Assembly (NCBI GenBank): GCA_024220525.1
Contig: JAMYWO010000171.1
Location: forward strand, 25,633-89,632
DNA from: Cochliopodium minus
Lineage: Eukaryota; Discosea; Himatismenida; Cochliopodiidae
Direction of reading: 5' to 3'
DNA length: 64,000 nt
Shown: in pieces, positions 32,805-64,000 of the stretch
How the letters are laid out: each line of letters opens with the position of its first letter
Numbering within the stretch: the first letter of the stretch is position 1
The notes under the pieces: generated by a model
The model's database searches: none
Told to the model about the DNA's origin: nothing
Seen by the model: only the letters and a program-made list of their open reading frames with translations
Program-made: the position numbers and the translations under genes

Positions 32805-35800
32805 ATGTAATTTGCCCATTATTATACATTATAAATCGATATCAATCCAAAATTCTTTTTTAATTTTGAAATTGTTTCAAATATTAATAATTATAAAAAA
32901 AAAATAAAATATCAAATGATATATATGAATATAGGTCCACATCTGAGGAAAGAAGACTTCTAAGAGAAGAAAGAAGAAAGAAAATGGAAGAGGAATTAAG
33001 ATTGCAAGAAGAAGAATTGCAAAGAAAAAGGGAAGAGAGAATGAGAAGAAGAGGGAATTTGACGGAAGATACACCAAAAGAGGAAAAGAAACCAGAACCT
33101 GAGCCAGAAAAAGAAAAAGAGCCTGAAAAACAGCCAGAACAAGAATCTGAACCAGAAAAAGAAAAAGACCCCGAAACACAACCAGAACAAGAATCTGAAC
33201 CAGTGAAAGAGCCTGAAAATGAACCTCAACAAGATCTTGAACAGGAAACTGAACCACAAAAAGAGCATGAAACTGAACAAGATGTAGAACCTGAAGATAA
33301 TGTGGAAATAATTGATGATATCGTAGAACCTGTCAGAAATAATCATGAAGAAAATAAACAAAAAGAAGAAAATAATAATAATCATGTCGATAATGGACTC
33401 CAGGAACAATTAAATGTATTCATGGAAAAAATTAGTGAACTCAAGAAAACATTGAATAATGAAAGAAAAGAGCATGAAAGCGCTGTGCAAGATTATGAAA
33501 GCAGATTAAATAATGATAGAGAAAGATTTACTGATGAAATCGAGCAATTACAAAAGTCTGGCAAAGAAAAAGAAAGACAGAATGAAAATCTTGCAGGAGA
33601 GATTGCATCCTTGCAAATAAAATTGGAAAGGGTGGAAAGAAAATTCAATTCTCAAATTGATGATTTGAATTTGACCATCCAAAAGAAGGATTTGGAGATT
33701 GATAGCTTGAGACAAAACTCTGATAACAACAGCAGCAATGATAATTCTAATAGAGAGCTTTTGAGGGAGAAAGAGGAAGAGATCGAGAGATTAAAAGAGA
33801 GATTGGAGTTGCTCTCAACTAATGAGGAGGAGATTGAGAGATTGAAGCAATATTCTAACAGATTGGATTCCATCATCAACGATAATGACAAGGAGATCGA
33901 GCAATTGAAGAAGGAATTATCTGAATCCAGAAAATCATCTTCTAATCACGAGGATACGAATGAAGAGATCGAAAGACTCAAAAATGAATCAGAGAGATTG
34001 CATTCCATCATCTCCGATAATGAATTCGATATTGAAAAGTTGAAAAAGCAATTGGAGGAAGCAAAGAAGAACTCCAAACCTTCCGGTCCTTCTTCCAATG
34101 AGACCAAGCTTCAAGAAGATCTCAAAGATAAGCAGAATCAGATCAAGGATTTGAGAAATGATAACGATAGATTATCCAAGGATTCCAAATCAAAGGATAG
34201 AGAGATCGAAAGACTCAAAGAACAAATCGAAAACATGAAATCTTCTACTTCTTCCAACAACAGATCCTCTGGAAGAAAATCATCTACTACCACCCCTACT
34301 TATGATGAAGAAGAAGAAATCATCGATGAGGAAGTAGAACCTGTACATGAAAGGAAAGTACAAGAAGAAGAATACAAAACAAGATCTAATGAAGACTCTA
34401 GCGAGAGAACAAGATCCAAGGAAGGAGTTGATCCAGAGGTCTTAAAGACATTGAAGAATGAAAGAGAGAAAGAATTTGAGCTCCTCTCTGAGCAACAAAG
34501 AAGGGAGAAGGAACAACTCCTTGAAAAACAAAGAAGGGAAAGAGAAGAAGAGAAAAAGAAAATTACAGAGGGTGTTTCTGGTAACAGAATGAAGTTCTTG
34601 GAGTTAGAAAAGGGAGGCAAAAAGTCTGAATCTAACACTTCCACTGGTAGCTTGAACTCTGAAGAACAAAGAAGATTGAAGTTAGAAAGAGAAAAGGAAC
34701 TTAACGAAGCTGCAGAGAACGAGAGACTTCAAAAGGAGAGAGAGGTCGAAGAACGTAAGAGAGAAAGATTGAACGAAGCTAAGAAGATTACCACTGAGAC
34801 CAAGTCAAAGTTGTCGATGTTCGAACAATTGACTTCCAAGCCTCAAACTGGTAACACCAAACCTGTCCTTTCTGAAGAAGAAAAGGAAAGAAGAAACAAA
34901 GAAAATCTCGAGAGAAAACAAAAAACAAGTCAAATGTGGAACCAAAAGACAAGTCAAGAGTCTGACAACTCTAGTTTGAGATCTCAAGAATTTGGAAAAG
35001 AGAGATTAGAAGAAAAAGAAAAGATGCAAAAGTTGAGACAAGAAGAAAAAAAGAAATTGCTTTCTGGAAAGAGAGATGAAGAAGAGGACAACAAGAAAGA
35101 GGAAGAAGAAAGAAAGAAAAGACAACAAGAAGAGGAGGAGAGAAAACAAGAGGAGGAAAAGGAAAGAAAGAGAAGAGAGGAAGAGAGAAAGAGAAAACAA
35201 GAAGAGGAGGAGGAAAAAAAGAGAAAACAACAAGAGGAAGAAGAGGAAGAGGAGAGAAGAAGACAAGAGGAAGAAGAGAAAGAGAGGGAAAGAGAGAAGA
35301 AAAGAAAAGAGGAAGAAGAGGAGAAGAAAAGAAAGGAAGAAGAGGAGAAAAAGAAGAAACAAAATCCTCCTACCAAGACTGCTCCTGTCAAAACCACCAC
35401 TACTACCAAAAAAACAACTACTACCACTGCTCCTAAGAAGACAACTTCTAACAACAGTCCTTCTACTACCGCCCCTGTTAAAAAGACTAGCACTTCTGGT
35501 TCTTCTAGCAACTTGTCTACCACCTCTGCCCCAAGAAAGACAACCAGCGCAAACACTGAGGAAGAGATCAAGTTTACTTGTGCAGAACTCACCATCTTTT
35601 TGAATAGAATTAATGCCAACTTGAAGGAAAACTCCAACTGGAAATCCGAATTGCCTATAAAGGGAGATAGAATCTATGAATTGGCTAAAGATGGTGCTAT
35701 TCTTTGTGATCTCCTCGAATCTTTCAGACCAGGTACATTGGATGTCAGAACGATCGAAAGATCAATCTCTGATGACTTTGACAGGGAGGCTAATCTCAAT

Positions 35801-36322
35801 CTCGCTTTCTCTTCTGCAAAGGGAAACGGTGGAAGATTTAATGCTAAATGTAGTGTAAAGTTATTAAAGGCAGGTAACAAAGAAGCTGTCTTGTATTTCT
35901 TGTGGGAAATCATCAAACTTGGAATACACAAGGATTTGTTGGAATGTACACCTGTCAGAAAGATTCTTTCCGAAAAAAGTGGGGAAGATGTTGGATCCAT
36001 TAGAGATTCTTGGGGTGCTGATAACATTTTGCTTGGATGGGCCAGTTATCATTTGGAGAAATCAAATTATGGAAAGGAGGTCACTACTTACAAAGAATTT
36101 TCAAATCCTGATCTCTTCATTTATTTGTTTGCTGAAACTCTTGATTCTTCTACTGATGCTCTCAAGTCAAGCGATGAAAAAGAAAAGATTGAATCGATCA
36201 TCTCCATTTCAAAACAAAAGAGTATTCCTCAAGTCATCACCGCTGCTGGTTTGCAATCAGGTAATGAAAGAATGGTCATTCATTTGTTAGGATATCTATT
36301 TCGCAAGATCTTCCCAAAATAA
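32805..36322 (+). CDS. Large coiled-coil protein with C-terminal calponin-homology domains
   Basis: The large exon 32935..36322 is open back to an acceptor (gaatatag, ending 32934), entering in phase 2. Joining it to AT at 32805-32806 gives a split ATG and N terminus MSTSEERRLLREERRKK, total 1129 residues; otherwise translation starts at ATG 32984 (1112 residues). Residues ~45-115 are Glu/Pro/Lys repeats (EPEPEKEKEPEKQPEQESEP). Residues ~155-450 are a long coiled coil, ~500-800 a Lys/Glu/Arg-rich charged helix, then a Lys/Thr/Ser/Pro linker. The C-terminal ~245 residues hold fimbrin-like CH domains (GAILCDLLESFRPGTLDVRT; NLNLAFSSAK; NILLGWASYHLEKS), which bind actin or similar filaments. Likely a cytoskeletal crosslinker; partners unknown. 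It is convergent with HEATR3 (103 bp). Confidence 0.8.
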
Positions 36323-47253: not shown

Positions 47254-50200
47254 TTAATAATCTCTTTTTAGATTGACCATTTGATAAAAAGTTGAATTAG
47301 GATTAGAAAGGAGGTTGTTTGGAGAATCAAATTCAACCTTTCTGCCAGCTCTCATTACAAGAACAGAATCAAGATCGACTATAGTTTGGAGTCTATGTGC
47401 GATCATCACTGTAATAAAAGGAATTTAAATAACCAATTATTTAAAAAGGATAAATTTTTTTTACAAACAGTTCTTTCTGATAATTTTTTCATGGCCTCTT
47501 GTAGAAATTTTTCGCTGTTATTGTCAACACTTGAAGTTCCTTCATCAATAATCTAAAATATTTTCTTAACAAAGAAAGCTATGAATTGAATGTGAAAAAT
47601 GTTACGATAATTTTGCTATCAAAAAGAAGAGCTCTGGCCATGCACAAAAGTTGTTTTTCACCCAATGAAAAGGAGGAACCTTTTATAACAGTATCAAGAC
47701 CATTTTCAAGTTCTTTAAAAAAAGATTTTGTATTTAAAGTAAATAAAAAATTGTTTAAACATTTTTTTACTTTCACATTTGTTTAATAGTCCAACAATTT
47801 TGAGCATATCCCACATTTTTTCATCATTAATATTTGGTCTGCCAAAACTCAAGTTAAATCTAAGAGTATCATTAAAGATGACTGGAGTTTGAGGTATCGC
47901 ACATATTTGTTTTCTGAGGATGGGAAGTGGAATTGATCTGACATCTACTCCATTCAACTCTACCTTTCCTGCTTCAACTTCCACAAGTCTCATAATAGAA
48001 TTGAAAATGGATGATTTTCCTGATCCAGTTCTTTTCATGAAAAAAAATTTAGATTTTTATTTTATTTATTTATTTTTATTTTATTTATTTATTTACCTCC
48101 CAACAATACCACAAGATTTTTTTGGTTCAACTTCAAAAGAAAGATTCTTTAAGACAAGTTGATTTGTGTATCCCATTTTGACATTTCTGAAAGCTAATGA
48201 TCCTTCGTTCGGCCAACGGTAGTTATATCTCCTAATTTCTTTTTGAGTGTACTGCTTTTCTATTTCATAACTAGAATACTCCATTATTCTTTCGACAGAA
48301 TTCATTTGGCCTTGACTGGATGTTAAAGATCTAATTAAAAAATTGATAGTGTTAGCAGAACTAAGTGAATAGGTGAGTGCTAATCCAATCGATGAAGAGT
48401 CAACATTATAAGTAGAACCCAAATATCCGTAAAAGGAAATGAAAAACAGAGCACTAGTAGCTATTGTATCTGCTCGAAATGCCAACCACCTTTCCATCGC
48501 AATCCCAAAGAAAACACACTTGTTTAGATTATCTATCTTTTCTTCTATTTTGTCCACAAACATTTTTTCTACTTCTTCTATTCCACTGTTCCTAATTGTC
48601 AATACTCCATCTTTTATAATTTCATTAATAGTGAAAGATCAAAAATTTTAATTATTTATTTTACCAAGGGACTCGTTTAGTTTGCTTGTTATATCACTCG
48701 TTGCAATATTTTTAATTCTTGTGACTTCACGAAATGACTTCCCAAAGTATTTTTGAGAAAAAAAGAGTACAATGAAGATAAATCCCACCCCAATTAATGC
48801 CCAGTAACTTGAATAAATAATGATAAAAAGTGTTGCAATGATTTGGAAGATACGATCTTGACTAACAAACAAAAAAAAATCAAAAAAATTTCAATTAAAA
48901 AAAAAAAGAATGGATAAAATTACCTTTCTCTTAGTGTTTCAGAAAGTTGAAAATCGATTTGATCAATATCATTTGCGAATCTTGATTGAAATCTAATTTT
49001 CAATGAAGAACAATATGAATCTTAAGATAGAAAAGAAAAAAATTTTTTTTTTAACCTTCCCATAGGTATTGATTCGAAGACTGTTTTTTTGATTTTCAAA
49101 ATTGCTCTAATCAACATTTGGTGAAAGTAATTCGATGAAAAAAGAGAAGCAAAAGAATTGCAGATGAGATGTAAGAATAAACACAAAGAAAAAATCAATC
49201 CTAACAACATATAGAAAAAAAGATGCTGTCTGTTTTGATGAATGTCCATATTACTCGCCCCTTCTTTTGCCCATTTAGAAAGGTAAATATTTTGGATGAC
49301 TGTTATAACATAACTAGTCAAAATGAAAACGACAGAGCTTCCCCAAAAGAAAGGTGAACTTTTTGAAAAAAAAATTTTATGATAAAAAAAATAAATAAAA
49401 AGTGTTAAATTGTTTATAATACCTGCTGAAGTAATGATAAAATTTGTTCATTTTGACAAACCCTGATTCCTTTTTTTCTGAAAGTTTTTCGGTTGTGGTA
49501 TTTATTCCGTCTTCTACCTTTTCTATTTTGTCCAACTCTTTCTCTTTCTCTTCTTGTTTCTTTATTTCCTCTTTTTCCTTTTTTTGTTCCAATTCGCTCT
49601 GTATTTTCTTTTCTTCTTCTTTTTGTTTTTTTTCTTTAGATAATTCACTTTGGGACAATAGAGATTTGAACAAAGAATTTTCCATCAATTGATCATAATT
49701 TCCTGTAGCTTTCATACTACATAAAATAATGATTTGAATGATTATTTTTAATGTTTTTTTTTTTTTTACCATCCATCATCTAATAAATAAATATTATTTG
49801 CTTTTGTTACGAGATCCAAGTGATGAGTAACCAGGATAACTGTTTTTTTAGCTAAGAAATTTTCTATAACCTCTTTGTAAACCATCTGTCCAACCTTTAC
49901 ATCTTTTAAAAAAGATTTAAAATAAAATAATTGGCAATAGGTTTTGGATAAGAAAAAATACCTAAAGGAGAAAAAGGATCATCCAATAAATAAATGTCTG
50001 CATCAGAGTAAAGAGTCCTTGCCAAACATATTCTCATTTTTTGTCCTCCACTCAGTCCTTTACCTCCTTCTCCAATAGATGTATTTTCTTTCTTTTCAAG
50101 CAAATTAAAGTCAACATCCAATGCACAAGCTTTGATAACTTGTTTAAATCTAGTTTCTTCGTAAGGAAGTCCAAAGAGAATATTATCTTTGATGGTAGCA

Positions 50201-52163
50201 AATAATAAGAATGGATTTTGAGAAAGAAAACTGATATTCCCTCCAATTTCTACCTTTGATTTTCTGAAAGTGTGCAATTCTCCTAAAATAGCGTGTAAAA
50301 GAGAACTCTTTCCACTTCCTACTTTTCCTGAAATAACGCTCAATTCTCCTTTCTTGATGTGCATGTTAATGGAAGAAAGAATGAATGAATTTTTGTTGAG
50401 TTGAAGTTTTTCTTCGGTTTTTATGAGATCTTGGTTTTCGTCATTCATTGTGACACTAACTTGATTACTTTCCTCTATTTGTTCCTCTTCTTTTTTCCAA
50501 CTAAATTCTGAGTTCTCAATATTAATTGCAAGTTTTCCCAAGTCAAGAATAGGAAATGATTCTTTTTCTTCTTGCATCAAAAATTCTTCTAATCTACCCA
50601 AACTAACCTTAGATTCAACAATAGAAGCCATTACTTGATTTAATTGGGAAAATGGGATTCTCAAAACTTGGAGAAGAGACAAAGTTGCAAAGGCAATAGC
50701 AGGTGTTAATTTTTTACCCATTTCAACAAATACAAGGAAACAGATAGAAGTAGTGGCGGGTACAACCATGAAATTAAGAAAGTTATGAATTGCTTTTACA
50801 ATTTGGAAAAGTCTTATTTGCTTCATTTCTTTATCTCTTATATTGAGAATTTTCTCGAGGAAATAATCTTCTAAAACATAAAGTTTTATCGTTTCCATCG
50901 TATTCAACATCTCTGAAGAAGTTCCAACTCTTTCATCTGTGGTTGTAATTATGCTCTTTTTCAGTGTTTGTGTTCTTTTGGCAAAGTAGGCTGACAAAGG
51001 CATTGAAATGATAAAAAAAGAGAATCCTATTAGAGATGGCCAAAGTCCCAACATCACCACACAAAATGCAAAAGAAGAAAGTACAATAAGAGTGGATGCC
51101 CATGTGAAATGAAGAAATCTGTATGCTGTTTCTAACCTCGCTGTATCGTTGTTTAGAAGATTGATCACTTGATTCCTTTTCGAACCGTTCAGAGATTGGT
51201 TACTCAGCCTGAGTATTTTGGAATGTAAGAATGACATTATCTGTAATTTTTTTTTAAAAAATCATTGTTTGATTTAAATTTTTAAAAAGGATAAATTGAA
51301 ATGATTTTTTTTTTTTTTTACACCAGATCTAATCTCAAAGCCAGTTCTAACCTTTTAATTAAAAATCATTTAGATAAAATAAAATAAAATAAAATAAAAT
51401 GAAAAAATATCTTTGAATTTGTTTACAGTTTTAAACCAATACAATTGGAGATTGATCGAACGTAATGTTGGAAGAATGATCATCAACAACAGAAGGATTC
51501 CCCATTGGAGATTGCTGGTTTTCTTGTTTTCAATGTAGTTGATTACCATCTTGATTAAATAAGGGATAGCCACTTCTACAGCAGAAAATATCAATCTGCA
51601 AGGAGCTGTCCAAATGAATGGTGATTTGAATACATTCCACAATACCCAAAACAATTTGTTTTTTGTTGTATTTGCATTTGTATTATCCCAATGATACTCA
51701 ATTTGATCTCTTATTTCACTTGTTTTGATGTCTATTTGATATAAATCATCCAAATCTATTGTTCATTAGTTTTTGTATTTCAGAGAAAAAAAAAAAACGA
51801 ATTATTTCAAATCATTTTTGAAATATTAATTCTATTGATACCTAGTGATTTCTGATTTCCTAATTTTAACAATGGAAATAGCCATGATACTGACCATCTT
51901 TTTTAATATGTTGGATTTATGTTGATTATTAAAGAAATGAAATATAAAAAAGAACGAGAAATACCTTGAAAAATAATTTGAATCAACATCAGGACTCATA
52001 ATAGAACTAAAATCAATAATATTCCATTGATTTTTCAATAAAAAAGAGAATAATTTAAAATAATGTTTTGTGACCTGTTTTTGATTTCCAAATCAATCGC
52101 CTCAAATTGATTTTTCTTTCCACAACATTTTTTTGTTGGTTTTTCAAATTGCATATCATTCAT
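47254..52163 (-). CDS. ABCC/MRP-type full ABC transporter
   Basis: Sixteen exons, complement(47254..47408, 47465..47552, 47606..47712, 47771..48030, 48097..48610, 48665..48861, 48924..48992, 49056..49358, 49423..49716, 49770..49902, 49962..51240, 51322..51351, 51427..51755, 51842..51897, 51965..52006, 52075..52163); 1314 residues, all phases agree. Layout is TMD1-NBD1-linker-TMD2-NBD2 without TMD0. The start has the ABCC motif SNYFSRWSVSWLFPLLKLG. NBD1: SGKVGSGKSS, GKGLSGGQKMR, IYLLDDPFSP (Asp in place of catalytic Glu, as in many ABCC proteins). NBD2: GRTGSGKSS, SLGEKQLLCMARAL, IIIIDEGTSSVD, MIAHRLQTI. The linker (~690-770) is a Lys/Glu coil. Family role: ATP-driven export of anionic conjugates. 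Substrate unknown. Confidence 0.9.
48055..48095. repeat. TTTA/TTTTA simple repeat in an ABC-transporter intron
   Basis: Tandem TTTAT/TTTA units make up most of the 66-nt intron 48031-48096. It is a typical AT microsatellite and may vary between strains. Confidence 0.8.
51374..51401. repeat. (AAAAT)n microsatellite, five units, in an ABC-transporter intron
   Basis: Five consecutive AAAAT/TAAAA pentamers within the intron 51352-51426. Simple-sequence repeat with no further meaning visible. Confidence 0.85.
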
Positions 52164-52289: not shown

Positions 52290-54805
52290 TTAAAAGCATT
52301 TTCTATGAACAATGTTAGGTCCTGATTCTTCATATTCTTCAATACTTATCCACATCTTTGAAAAAGTGGAAAGGGAACTTAGTATGCTTGCTCCAATCCA
52401 TGAAGAAAAAACAGGCTCAGTAGAAGTAATCACACTCAATTTATCAAGGCCTATTTTGGAAAATTCATTCGACAATCTCTGTTCAAATCCATTTAATAAA
52501 ACACTTCCTCCAATCAAGCAAAGATGTTTTAGATCATCTTCAATATCAACACAACTTTCTTTTCCAATTTTAATAAGTTCCACTAGTGTTTTTTCTCCTT
52601 TCAACTCGATTAAAGATTTATTATTTCCTCTTTTTTGGAATAATACTTCAGACGGGGAGAATCTTTCTTCATTTAATTCTATTATCTCTCCATCAGGTAA
52701 GACATATTCAACAGATACACCAACATTTTTGGAATCTTTTATAGAAGAAACGAATCCATAGTTGTGTTTGATGTTGTTAGCTATTTTGACTTTGTCATAC
52801 TCTGTGAATTTCTTTGAAATTCGGGGAGAAATAGATTGAATTATTTTTTCGGTTACATTTATTCCTCCCAATGGTGATGTAATACTCTTTTGTTCATTTA
52901 AAGATCAGTTAAAACTTATTAAAACGAAACGAGTACCTTGTCGGGGAGGCAATACCTAGTTTTTCATTTTAGCAATAAAAATTTTGAAAATTTGATAAAT
53001 TTACCCTTCATATATTGAAACTATATTGGTTTTATCGTATCCAACATTTACCATTATCTTGAAAAACAACTTAATTTTTAAATTATTGAATGTATTAATA
53101 TTTTACCCCTGTTGTTTTACCCATTTGATAAAGACTATTTAAAATGAAAATTAATGTGGAAATGAAATTTTTTATTTACCCTAGAACAGACTAAGAAAAA
53201 AAAAAAATGCGAACATTAAAATTATGTTTCTAGTATTCAAATAAATATTTACCGAAATACAAGCATAAGTAGAACCAAAACAAAATTTTTCAAATACAAG
53301 TTCAGTAACATTTTCTCTATATTGTTTATTATAGTTTGAATCGTGAGTCCACAACAGACTAGAAGAGGCACAATATCTATCAAGTGGGTTTGTGTAGCAG
53401 TAATCTAAGATAGATTCTATATGGTCCATGTTTGCATCTTCGCAGTTATTGTAAGCACGAAAAAAATCAAATTCATTATGGAGACGTTCATAATTATCTG
53501 ATCCTACAAGGAAATAGTTTTTATTTTCAAGTTGATATTTCGCAATTACAGTTTCTGAAACGATGGAAGGCGTTTCTTGACCGTTACATCCAAACTTGAA
53601 TGTACCATTCCCAAAGTCAATGCTATTTTTAAAAATTTTTAATTTTTTTATTTTGTGAAAAATGAGTTTTTTTAAAAAAAAAAAAGTTTACCTTGATCCA
53701 TTATGTTCTTCTTTGTGGTTGGTGTTTCTTTGAGAGAAAGAATATCTCATCTTGGGAGAAATTTGTATCTTGTGGTCTCTTTCGTTAAATTGCACAAAAA
53801 ATTTTTTCAAGTTACTGTACAAATTAGAATTGTAAAAATCTCGTGGTTTTGATTCTAAAGAAACGAAATCATTCCTCAATTTTTCAATTTTATCTTTCCA
53901 AATTTTTTCTTCATTGGAATGTACGTAGAAAAAGCGAGAAATCTTTGAAATCTTTAATAGATTCGAGACATCAAAGAAGCTAAAAAGATAGGTGATTAAA
54001 ACATTAGGAAGTTTTGAAAATGGACTATCTTTGATGGAATCTCTGAGAGGAGGATCTTCCTTAGAACCTATAAAACCTAATCTGTTTAATTCGTTTATTT
54101 TTATCTCTTTCTCTTTTCCTTCTTTAAGGTATGGATTTCTTGGAATAAATTTCACTCTTGGCTCGTATGGTGCTTCTCTAAATTGAATGCAGATCCTTTT
54201 TTTTTTGTAGCTTTCTGGCAAGTGTTTAGGGGAGCTATTTTTCTCGAAATTTGTTATCCCATGTTTTACATTTGCATTTATACTCGAATCAAAGATCACC
54301 ACATCCCCACTTTTAACTTTAATTTTGATTTTTTTGGATTCTCCTTCTTGATACCTTTTATTCTATTATAAAACCCCTTTATATAAACAAATATATTCAA
54401 AATTCTTTACCAAAAGTTTGCAGTAGATCCTATTGAAATTATCACTGCATATCCTCTCACAAAATCATAATGTCCTTCGAGAAATCCATCCTTTTCATCA
54501 AATGATAAGCATTCAATCAACCCTATTTTATATTCATTAGGGAATTTTTCTATTGATGCTTTCTCATTCACATAAAGATTTATCTTTTGCATTATTCCTT
54601 GTAATGGTTGATTTATGGATTGCATATTCATATCATAGCTGAATAATTTGGAGCAAATGGAGTTTTTCAATTTCTGAGGATGAAAAGAAATTTCCTTCTT
54701 AATTTTTTCAATTTGATCGATCAATAAAAGCTGATCTTCCAAAGAAAAAAAATTTGGAATATGCAATATCTTTAATTGAACTTTTTCTTTAATTTCCTTC
54801 TTCAT
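52290..54805 (-). CDS. AlkB-type dioxygenase / F-box / actin-related protein fusion
   Basis: Eight exons, complement(52290..52886, 52937..52955, 53005..53057, 53107..53134, 53180..53190, 53253..53622, 53692..54354, 54411..54805); 711 residues, all joins in phase. Residues 1-195 are an AlkB-family 2OG/Fe(II) core: H112-x-D114 in GHYDFVRGY, H163 in NVKHGI, and R185-x5-R191 in KKRICIQFRE, the complete metal- and 2OG-binding set. Residues ~244-290 are an F-box (FSKLPNVLITYLFSFF). Residues ~351-711 are an actin fold: IDFGNGTFKFG (phosphate 1), VNVGYDKTNIVSIYEGYCLP (phosphate 2) and LIGGSVLLNGFEQRL (adenosine loop). AlkB and F-box lie in one uninterrupted exon (53692-54354). F-box plus actin recalls plant ARP8; the AlkB part is extra. 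Likely an SCF adaptor with a demethylase-like module; substrates unknown. Contains 11-, 19- and 28-nt exons. Confidence 0.88.
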
Positions 54806-54923: not shown

Positions 54924-55451
54924 TTATCTTTCATGACTTTTATTCTTCTTTTTTGATGTAACCCAAGCAAAGGCTTCTTCCAATCCTTTTCCATTCAATG
55001 CACATGTTCCCTGTATCTTCCATTTCTGTGTAATACTATCAAGATCAAGCTGTTTGGAGATTTCTGTGATGGTGAATGAATTCAAAAGATCTTGTTTATT
55101 GGCAAGAATCAACACATTTGAATCTTTTAATTCAGGGCTAGATAAAATGCGTGATAATTCTTTTTTTGATTTTTTCAGATTAACCCTATCACTGCTATCA
55201 ACCACAAAGATTAACGAGTGGAAAATTTTTTTATACATTTTCTGTTGTTTATTTGCTTCGATATCCCAAATTGTATATTTGTTATTTTTAAACTTTATTG
55301 TTTCCACTTTAAAACCCATGGATGGAGGACTTAGTTCTTTGATCACTCTACCATATTTTAATTGAAAATAAATTGATGTTTTTCCAGAGTTGTCTAATCC
55401 CAAAATTGCAACTCTTGCATTACATTTGCTTTTTGTTAAATACATTCCCAT
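54924..55451 (-). CDS. ARF/ARL-like small GTPase with degenerate G3 box
   Basis: Intronless, 175 residues, normal ARL size. MGMYLT at the start keeps Gly2, the N-myristoylation position. G1 is intact (GLDNSGKTS), switch I is PPSMGFKVE (the usual Thr is Ser), G4 is NKQDL and G5 is CALNGKG. The G3 box, normally WDxGGQ, reads WDIEANKQ: the glycine and catalytic glutamine are both replaced. So nucleotide binding is plausible but hydrolysis and switch II movement are probably altered. ARLs recruit effectors to membranes or cilia. It sits 118 bp upstream of the AlkB fusion gene on the same strand. Confidence 0.85.
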   Translation of the reverse strand: MGMYLTKSKCNARVAILGLDNSGKTSIYFQLKYGRVIKELSPPSMGFKVETIKFKNNKYTIWDIEANKQQKMYKKIFHSLIFVVDSSDRVNLKKSKKELSRILSSPELKDSNVLILANKQDLLNSFTITEISKQLDLDSITQKWKIQGTCALNGKGLEEAFAWVTSKKKNKSHER

Positions 55452-55784
55452 GTGAAATCTATTCTTTTGATTTTTTTGATTTTTATCATTTTAATTTACT
55501 TTTTTCCAAGGATTTTAAATTAATTATTATTTTTTAACCTAAATTTCAAAGGATCTTCAAATTCGAACAAAGTTTAAATTTTCTTTTTGAGATATAAACA
55601 AATGAATACCATAAATTGAATTAAAGATTTCTTTTTAAAATATTAATTTAATTAGTAAATTTATAATAAATTTTGATATTTGGTGAAATAAAGTTAACAT
55701 GATTATTAGAAGAAATTGTTTGTATTATCAAAAACATATGTTCCTTCTATGAAGTTGAATTATAAATATAGTTAAATTTTTTTT
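55452..55784. other. Intergenic, no gene seen (333 bp)
   Basis: Between the ARL start and the lipase maturation factor stop, both minus strand. AT-rich, with no ORF or RNA gene recognised; it must hold the ARL promoter. Confidence 0.5.
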
Positions 55785-61290: not shown

Positions 61291-63485
61291 TCAGATTATT
61301 TTCTTTGATATTTCAGAGATACTTTTTCCATTGTTGAGATCTCCTCTTATGATGATTCTCTTTCCCAAAAGAACCACTGCATAAACAAATACTCTTGTTT
61401 TGGAATCATTGATTGAATTTCTTGAATAATGGATTGCCTCTCTCAAAGCATTCTTCACAACTTGATTCACATTTTGGATTTGGTAGGGCTCAATCTCCGA
61501 GCAATTCTCATCATATGAACCTTGGTAGAATAAAGCAAAATCTCCACCAATTTCCAATTCAAGCAATTTATCTTCTGAGAGACTATCAATCATTTTTTGA
61601 TGCTTTTTATAATCGGAATCCAACCATTCTTTGGGATTATTTTTTCTACCAATTTCTTTAAATTTTGGCAATACGACAGCATTTGGTCTGATAACTTTAA
61701 GCTCCAAAGTAATCTTGTATTCTGAAGTGATTCCATGGAGATCAATCGATGTTACTGAGATAACAATTTCTTTGTGTTTTTTATTGGAATAAGCAGAAGA
61801 AGGAATGGTAAATTTGAAATCAATGTTCGTCAATTTAAATTTTTTCCTTAATTCATCTTCTATGTGGCTTTGGAACTTTGCTTCACTGTATCCAGAATCC
61901 ACTTTTTCATTTCTCATCATTAAAATGAATGAATTTTTCAGAGAATCTATGTTATGGGGATTTCTAAGAATATCAGAAAGATAGCGAATGGATAAGGGAG
62001 TCCTCTTCAATTCTACTTGATCAGAGAATGATCTGAAAATGAGATTGTTGGAGATACACATTGTTTTTTCATTGCTGTTTGCAAATGTGGTTATCCCAAA
62101 AAAATAGCAAAGAGACAATACTTTATCCACCTGAGTTGATGTGTATTTATATTCATCGATCTCATAAATATCATCCAAATCAAAGGGTTTAGTGACAATA
62201 CTATCATATTCTAATCCATATTTTGCAGCAGATTTATCATCATCAGAAGGAATTGAAGTAACCTTTACCAATTTGTTTCTATCAAACTGGGGAATATTTA
62301 TATTTTTTGGAGTTTGTGGATTCATATTTAGATTTTGGCAGTATTTGAGACCTTCCATGATATCAGATGCAAGGGGAATCGAAGCAAAGAAATTGAGAGT
62401 ATTTTCTTTTATCCTTGAGTTTGGATCCATCAATAAATCAAGTTCTGATTTTGAAGGATTTAAAGGATCTTTGATTGCAAATACTTTTTTTCTATAATTC
62501 TCATCACGATGAATTTGATCCAAAAAGAAGATTGAAAGGTCTGAATTGAACAAACGTCTGTTTGATCCCGCAAATTTATAGCCATCGTAATTTGCTTTCA
62601 CGATTTGGTAAAGATGCTTTCTTTCTGCTTCTGAATCATCTCCAGTAAAGATATCCATCAATGCTCTTTTTATCTCTTCCCGAGGGAATCCAAAATGGTT
62701 GGAAATAGATGTCCTATTGGAGATATCAGTAAAGATATTTCCACTGCAAATTCCAGCAAGAGAAACCGCCATTATTCCAGTTGTATATGAATTGAATAAA
62801 AGTTTGGATTCATCATTTATATTCTTTATGGTGTCAAATAATTGTCTCAATAATGAGCTATTTTGATTCTCTGATATTTTGTTTGGATTGAATGATGAAA
62901 ATAAGAGATTATTTGAAAGATTATCAACTTCATCAATGATGATATAGAGTTTATTTCTTTGTCTGGCAACTTCCTTTGATATATTTTCTAATGTTTGCAT
63001 TGGATTATTTAGATCTATTGAGAAATGTTTTGAATCAAGACCATAGTTATATTTGAGACAATAATCCACCAAGGATGAAGTTATCTTCGCATTGAAATTG
63101 CTTTTTAATTCTTTAAAATTTTCCTCGTTGTTTATATTTGTTGGAATCGCTATCTGAAGACTAAGACGAAGCACTTGACATTGATTCTTATACTGCAAAA
63201 TTTTTTCATTGTTGAACCCATCAATCTTTGTTCCTTTGAATATTTCTTTGTTTCCCATAATATCAACAAATTCCTCCAAAGCATTTGTCATCAATGTTTT
63301 TCCCATTCTTGCTGGTCGAAAGACAATTGGATGATTCATTGAAATGATTGAGTGTATTGCTTCAGTATTATCAACAAAAAAATGATTTCCATTCCTTATT
63401 TCCTTGAAATTAACAATTCCACGAGGAAAATAATCAATATTGAGATTCTTATTGAGAGTACAATAGAATTTAAGTGAAGAATAAT
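61291..63485 (-). CDS. AAA-ATPase-like protein with C-terminal PD-(D/E)XK nuclease-like domain (5' end not resolved)
   Basis: The main exon runs from an acceptor at 63486 to the TAA-type stop at 61291; it enters in phase 1, so at least one 5' exon exists upstream (a candidate donor is CA|GTGAAT near 63546). About 731 residues are visible. N terminus: FPRGIVNFKEIRNGNHFFVD and RPARMGKTLMTNALEEF, the R-x-x-R-x-GKT P-loop of the AAA-ATPase-like family; Walker B is KLYIIIDEVDNLS. The C terminus resembles the PDDEXK_9 domain often found with it (SIDLHGITSEYKITLELKV, with D...ELK). This pair is widespread in bacteria and occurs patchily, often in many copies, in protists and fungi. Function unsettled; defence or mobile-element biology is speculation. 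First in-exon ATG is 63339. Confidence 0.8.
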
Positions 63486-64000
63486 CTTTTTTTTTTGATT
63501 ATTTTTTTCATATTTTTTTTTTAATTTATAAAAAAGATTATTCACTGAAAAACAAAGTGATTTGATGTTCTGAAAAAAGACCATTTGTTTTATACAATTT
63601 ATTCTCTTTATTTCTTTCAAAAATATTTAATTTACAGGCATATATATTTGATGTGTTTTATTATTGCTCTAATTCCTTTATTTTTGTTTTCTCATCTCAT
63701 CTCTTTTTGAATTGTTGTTTATTGTCAGAAATGAAAAAAATTAAAAAAAAATTAGCTCATTTGGTCTTGTGGAAGAATTCAATGTAAATAAAATTTTAAT
63801 TCCTTTCTTATAATAAAATAATATGAATTATAAATCCACCCATCTCTCCTATAAACATCTATTTTTTTGTTATAATTATCTTTTATTTTTTGAAAGAGAG
63901 AAAATATATAAAAAAAATTTATATAAATTTTTTATATGCCATTGTTTTTATATACAGTGGAAAGATAAAGAGGTGGAATGATTTCTCAAATTGAAAGATA
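63486..64000. other. Window end, no complete gene (515 bp)
   Basis: AT-rich. It probably includes the missing 5' exon and promoter of the AAA-like gene (an open stretch without ATG runs through 63548-63650 on the minus strand). A plus-strand ATG at 63978 stays open to the window edge but only for seven codons, so it cannot be judged. Confidence 0.4.

Follow-up and report, generated by a model that had tools for sequence, protein, structure and literature searches.

A Cochliopodium minus gene predicted to encode a single protein with an AlkB-type domain, an F-box and an actin fold

Gene structure and genomic surroundings

The window analysed in our study is a 64-kb stretch on contig 171 of the 598-contig, 44.65-Mb assembly of Cochliopodium minus, and its G+C content is low (0.25-0.39 in 2-kb steps). 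On the minus strand, it holds an open reading frame of 711 residues distributed over eight exons, with the ATG at 54805 and the stop codon ending at 52290. The start codon, the stop codon and the joined frame confirmed in the DNA agree with the original prediction of a single gene over 52290..54805. At the level of the DNA, three domains are demonstrated for the predicted protein, namely an AlkB-type head, an F-box and an actin fold, in this order and in a joined frame. The features of the gene are the following:

54411..54805, minus strand: exon 1, open reading frame from the ATG; start codon, N-terminal part of AlkB, iron ligands H112 and D114; donor GTAAAG at 54410
54355..54410, minus strand: intron 1 (56 nt), dividing the AlkB domain; two candidate acceptor AGs 8 nt apart
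53692..54354, minus strand: exon 2, second half of AlkB (H163, R185, R191), linker, F-box and link to the actin fold
53892..54020, minus strand: F-box, residues 244-286, at the PF12937 position (coordinates calculated from the start of exon 2 and the residue numbers)
53623..53691, minus strand: intron 2 (69 nt), between the F-box exon and the actin fold; GTAAAC...AAATAG, phase 2
53253..53622, minus strand: exon 3, from the first actin-fold strand (IDFGNG) onward; Pfam Actin and PDB actin alignment
53180..53190, minus strand: exon 4, micro-exon of 11 nt, actin fold; gapless actin alignment over the joints
53107..53134, minus strand: exon 5 (28 nt), actin fold; actin alignment
53005..53057, minus strand: exon 6, region of actin phosphate loop 2, degenerate (NVGYDKT)
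52937..52955, minus strand: exon 7, micro-exon of 19 nt, actin fold; actin alignment
52290..52886, minus strand: exon 8, C-terminal actin fold, conventional actin tail HRKCF and stop codon

All seven introns are of the GT...AG type, 45-69 nt long, with a G+C content of 0.10-0.26, the exon mean being 0.312. Six exons make up the actin part, and the two smallest, of 11 and 19 nt, are backed by the alignment with actins of the PDB, which is gapless at their joints. According to a codon-usage model trained on seven other ORFs of the window, the frame of the gene model has the best score of all six frames in every exon of sufficient length, five in total. When regions are scored instead of exons, the F-box gives a value near zero (-0.002), yet this is the best of its three frames.

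The junction leading to the actin fold had been described as phase-perfect, and it is indeed in phase (TCA AG/C ATT GAC TTT), with the donor GTAAAC at 53691 and the acceptor TAG before 53622. The claim that AlkB and the F-box share one uninterrupted exon has to be corrected, as intron 1 (54410-54355) divides AlkB, leaving the HxD in exon 1 and placing H163, R185 and R191 together with the F-box in exon 2. The acceptor of this intron is the joint at which the model is weakest: use of the TAG (exon start 54362) leads immediately to a TGA, while the AAG located 8 nt later (exon start 54354) keeps the frame.

Related to this, the gene model could be wrong, either because the AlkB-F-box part and the actin part form separate transcripts, or because the first AG of intron 1 is the acceptor used in most cases, which would truncate AlkB. 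We consider this distinctly unlikely. The gene structure is a DNA-based prediction, the upstream AG is present in intron 1, and Met334, about 20 residues ahead of the actin fold, could in principle serve as its start. On the other hand, exons 2 and 3 are just 69 nt apart, the open frame of exon 3 contains no Met ahead of the first actin strand, the AAG ending is also found in two of the six other introns of the gene, and the spliced AlkB domain scores well over exon 2 alone (scores below). Methionines of the 711-residue model are placed at positions 1, 59, 61, 72, 334 and further on; none occurs between 72 and 334, so the gene model provides no separate ATG start for the F-box.

An ARF-family GTPase (54927-55490, minus strand, PF00025 E 4.9e-40) is situated directly upstream of the gene, at a distance of about 120 bases, and the membrane and ATPase domains of an ABC transporter (49909-51261, minus strand) follow downstream on the same strand. 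Further away, an open frame of 735 codons (61294-63498, minus strand) carries a PF09820 predicted AAA-ATPase domain (E 2.2e-26), and one of 1141 codons (32897-36319, plus strand) a calponin-homology domain (E 3.4e-13) together with a long charged stretch (overlapping frame). Rfam gave no match at the gathering score in the window, and a bacterial-code scan detected no tRNA there. Two conserved 20-mers of SSU rRNA had no exact match in the assembly, the rRNA being divergent or missing from it.

The AlkB head

With the domain alone as a query, residues 1-197 match PF13532 (AlkB, 2OG-Fe(II) oxygenase) with E 2.2e-8 and 35.0 bits, above the cut-off of 31.2, while exon 2 alone stays below it (E 2e-4, 22.1 bits). 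The AlkB assignment of the original prediction is recovered in this form of the search but not in a Pfam scan with the whole 711 residues, where AlkB is absent from the listing at E <= 1. In addition, a model was built from nine AlkB pieces of the same genome and an E. coli stretch; the spliced domain reaches 37.5 bits with it and exon 2 alone 26.5, compared to 8.5 for the best of 1000 shuffles and 7.2 for the best ORF outside the gene. A chance motif was rejected on the basis of the PF13532 score above the cut-off and the same-genome model score far over the shuffles.

The HxD...H iron ligands and the two arginines six residues apart are present in the spliced protein as H112, D114, H163, R185 and R191, at the very numbers that had been predicted. 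The accompanying word "intact" is too strong, since Phe102 apparently occupies the position of the 2-oxoglutarate-contact tyrosine. This tyrosine, located before the HxD, is a family-defining feature of AlkB proteins. Phe102 aligns with the Tyr that L016, another AlkB of the same genome, has at this position, the alignment being weak in that stretch. The contact role itself is demonstrated for Tyr173 of NMAD-1 in the available part of PMC10278977.

Such a replacement could indicate a pseudo-oxygenase, whose AlkB fold would have lost catalysis and would persist as a module for binding or as a scaffold, with the protein working as an ordinary SCF receptor. In line with this are the Tyr-to-Phe change relative to L016, the divergence of the head, which shares 19-31% identity with the other nine AlkB pieces in alignment A1, and a PDB search with the single sequence, in which no AlkB and just two weak unrelated matches appeared. 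However, all the iron ligands (H112xD114, H163) and both arginines are kept, the latter with the same six-residue spacing as R250/R256 of NMAD-1, and these iron and 2-oxoglutarate residues count against the loss of catalysis because drift would not favour keeping them. We regard a pseudo-oxygenase as fairly unlikely.

In regard to the affinity of the head, eight AlkB cores were compared. The highest z-scores were obtained for the rice protein 5xeg (15.1) and two same-genome pieces, L016 (13.7) and L009 (12.2), followed by L013 (5.4), ALKBH3 (4.3), L014 (3.8), E. coli AlkB (3.4) and the NMAD-1 fragment (0.9). The structure 5xeg is that of rice ALKBH1, with demethylase activity on ssDNA reported in the accessible text of PMC8118384. 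L016 shows a similar run from the HxD to the following SxG; the intron of L016 is untypical, and its likeness to the head was given little weight because its joint had been picked by best score. As judged by these scores, the predicted head is nearest to AlkBs of the nucleic-acid type, represented by the same-genome AlkBs and rice ALKBH1, rather than to the actin demethylase NMAD-1.

An AlkB-actin link is already known, as NMAD-1 and ALKBH4 demethylate actin K84me1 (PMC10278977, in the part available). It could be proposed from this that the head demethylates actin or actin-like proteins at Lys84 as these enzymes do, and that the actin fold brings the enzyme to actin assemblies. Nevertheless, comparison of the head with the NMAD-1 fragment, which is missing a few mid residues, shows no affinity, as 103 of 500 shuffles were as good, the HxDDxWxWG stretch of the ALKBH4/NMAD-1 group is missing from the head, and the Lys84 position of the gene's own actin fold is occupied by Ser. 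An ALKBH4-like head was rejected on the z-score of 0.9, and actin demethylation appears quite improbable.

The F-box and the actin fold

The F-box remains below the Pfam cut-offs, both when the whole protein is the query (PF12937 19.6 bits vs 24.3, E 8e-4; PF00646 18.8 vs 20.5) and when exon 2 is used alone (21.0 and 20.3 bits, respectively; E 2.8e-4 for F-box-like). A model made of the 20 top-listed F-boxes of the same genome, with the gene's own F-box excluded, gives 32.8 bits and E 3.5e-9, the best of 1000 shuffles being 6.1; among the 393 ORFs of the window, the best score apart from the gene's own exon is 6.8 bits. The same-genome model (E 3.5e-9 vs the shuffles) led us to reject a chance match. 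F-boxes form a large family in this genome, with at least 150 matches (150 of 469 candidates scored), the gene's own F-box not being among the matches listed. Potential partners are encoded as well, SKP1 in six pieces (best E 5.6e-30) and cullin in 29.

Residues 354-711 match the PF00022 actin profile over positions 9-410 of 410 with E 4.7e-67, and the best 60 solved structures matched are actins (best E 1.8e-45). When compared to the ORFs of eight actin loci of the same genome, the actin fold scores highest with the conventional actin L001 (31.7%, 169 bits), and its tail SGPNIVHRKCF is close to the conventional one. D11, K18 and the glycines 301-302 are kept among the nucleotide residues, while the pocket is otherwise degenerate, with the changes S14 to N, Q137 to S, D154 to N and D157 to Y.

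The same genome contains further long divergent actins, L002, L003 and L004, which are 55-69% identical to L001 or to one another, and phosphate loop 2 is altered in L002 and L004. Judging from these loci, the actin family of this genome seems to have expanded and to be diversifying.

Search for copies and relatives

With residues 1-350 as a query, five matches were obtained in the own genome; two of them correspond to the gene itself, and the other three are confined to the F-box region. We also inspected the 5' regions (about 3 kb each, one of just 300 nt) of 26 other actin pieces starting near the N-terminus, picked by eye; the region of the gene itself, scanned likewise, gave matches with both the AlkB and the F-box model. 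AlkB was found upstream in none of the 26, and an F-box on the same strand in one (L068) and on the opposite strand in three. The F-box match of L068 has E 1e-3 and is more than 1 kb away; we read this F-box as part of a separate gene with later exons and its own stop, on the basis of open frames rather than a full gene model, and rejected L068 as a second fusion. Further copies of the fusion in the genome were rejected as far as the search with residues 1-350 and the scan of 26 regions reach.

Outside this genome, no relatives were found in viral_contigs with exons 2 and 8 as queries, nor in the prokaryote genome_contigs with exon 2. Since the collections searched are viral and prokaryotic, these results say little about eukaryotes. 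NCBIfam gave nothing above its cut-offs, and a phage collection queried with the genome's own actin gene gave no match, a result of no relevance to the question.

A literature search covering titles and abstract openings retrieved no paper on AlkB with an F-box and none on an F-box/actin protein outside plants, which is absence in searches and not proof. Likewise, no F-box/actin protein appears in the available parts of PMC1334187 and PMC7285305. The original prediction had considered an AlkB head on an F-box/actin protein to be new, and, within that search, the combination was not found described. Judging from the predicted protein, the domain architecture is new and made from known parts, well supported at the sequence level, and it is possibly lineage-specific.

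Proposed function

The reading that we tentatively prefer is that the gene encodes an SCF substrate receptor, a polypeptide of 711 residues with an AlkB head, an F-box and a partner-binding actin fold, including an oxidation or sensing step. The F-box would bind SKP1, and the protein would thereby join an SCF ubiquitin ligase. The actin fold, having lost key nucleotide residues, would offer a surface for binding a substrate or partner, in the way proposed for SUSA2/ARP8 of plants. The AlkB head could add an oxidation step, or sense oxygen or 2-oxoglutarate, within the receptor, and actin-fold binding might be coupled to oxidation, as the original prediction suggested. The gene appears to have been assembled from families already numerous in the genome (AlkB, F-box and divergent actins), perhaps independently of plant ARP8.

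A more specific form of the SCF receptor reading is possible and rather doubtful. It holds that the AlkB oxygenase is built into the receptor and the actin fold is its substrate arm, so that marking of the target would depend on oxygen, iron and 2-oxoglutarate, and that F-box and actin fold were joined outside plants in an event independent of ARP8. A second, differently built F-box/actin case would suggest repeated recruitment of the actin fold as an SCF receptor arm, with nucleotide binding lost, while an AlkB head on an SCF receptor, if true, would link AlkB oxidation chemistry to ubiquitination.

Comparison with known systems

Proteins of the KDM2 type combine a JmjC domain with an F-box and LRR. 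Like them, the gene described here joins an F-box to a 2-oxoglutarate oxygenase within a single polypeptide; it is set apart from them by description, with AlkB in place of JmjC and the actin fold in place of LRR. The JmjC/F-box pairing is not mentioned in the available portion of the review PMC13003115.

Among AlkB proteins, rice ALKBH1 (5xeg) and the same-genome L016 are most similar to the head, having the top-scoring cores of the eight compared. In contrast to the fusion, the solved rice protein consists of AlkB alone (231 residues), and the open frame of L016 stops shortly past the AlkB domain. ALKBH4 and NMAD-1 are, according to the part of PMC10278977 available, AlkB enzymes acting on actin, and they do so without a fused actin fold; the affinity of the head to them is not above shuffles.

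The closest precedent for the remaining two domains is plant ARP8/SUSA2 (At5g56180), a protein with an F-box and an actin fold that binds ASK1, a homologue of SKP1, and for which a role as SCF receptor has been proposed (PMC7562919). In the accessible text of the same paper, the actin domain of this protein is predicted to have a substrate role, complementation is still achieved by three mutant sets affecting predicted nucleotide residues, and the F-box/actin pair is stated to be plant-only, with the substrate unidentified; the original prediction, which knew this pair only from ARP8, named the same precedent. In both proteins, the F-box is followed by the actin fold, in that order and within one polypeptide. 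The light-harvesting chlorophyll a/b-binding family has no matches in the C. minus genome.

For a more detailed comparison, we used what we take to be the ARP8 sequence, which is consistent with five published positions. On this sequence, the two actin folds are about 26% identical (66 bits, compared to 169 bits for the gene's fold and its own actin L001), each of the two scores higher to L001 than to the other, and both form long branches in an eight-row actin tree that leaves the branching of the two open. Phosphate loop 2 is degenerate in both, VVNIGF in ARP8 and MVNVGY here. On the other hand, the C. minus protein keeps the actin tail, missing from this ARP8 sequence, and the subdomain 2 stretch, of which ARP8 lacks the greater part; it furthermore carries the AlkB head that is absent in ARP8.
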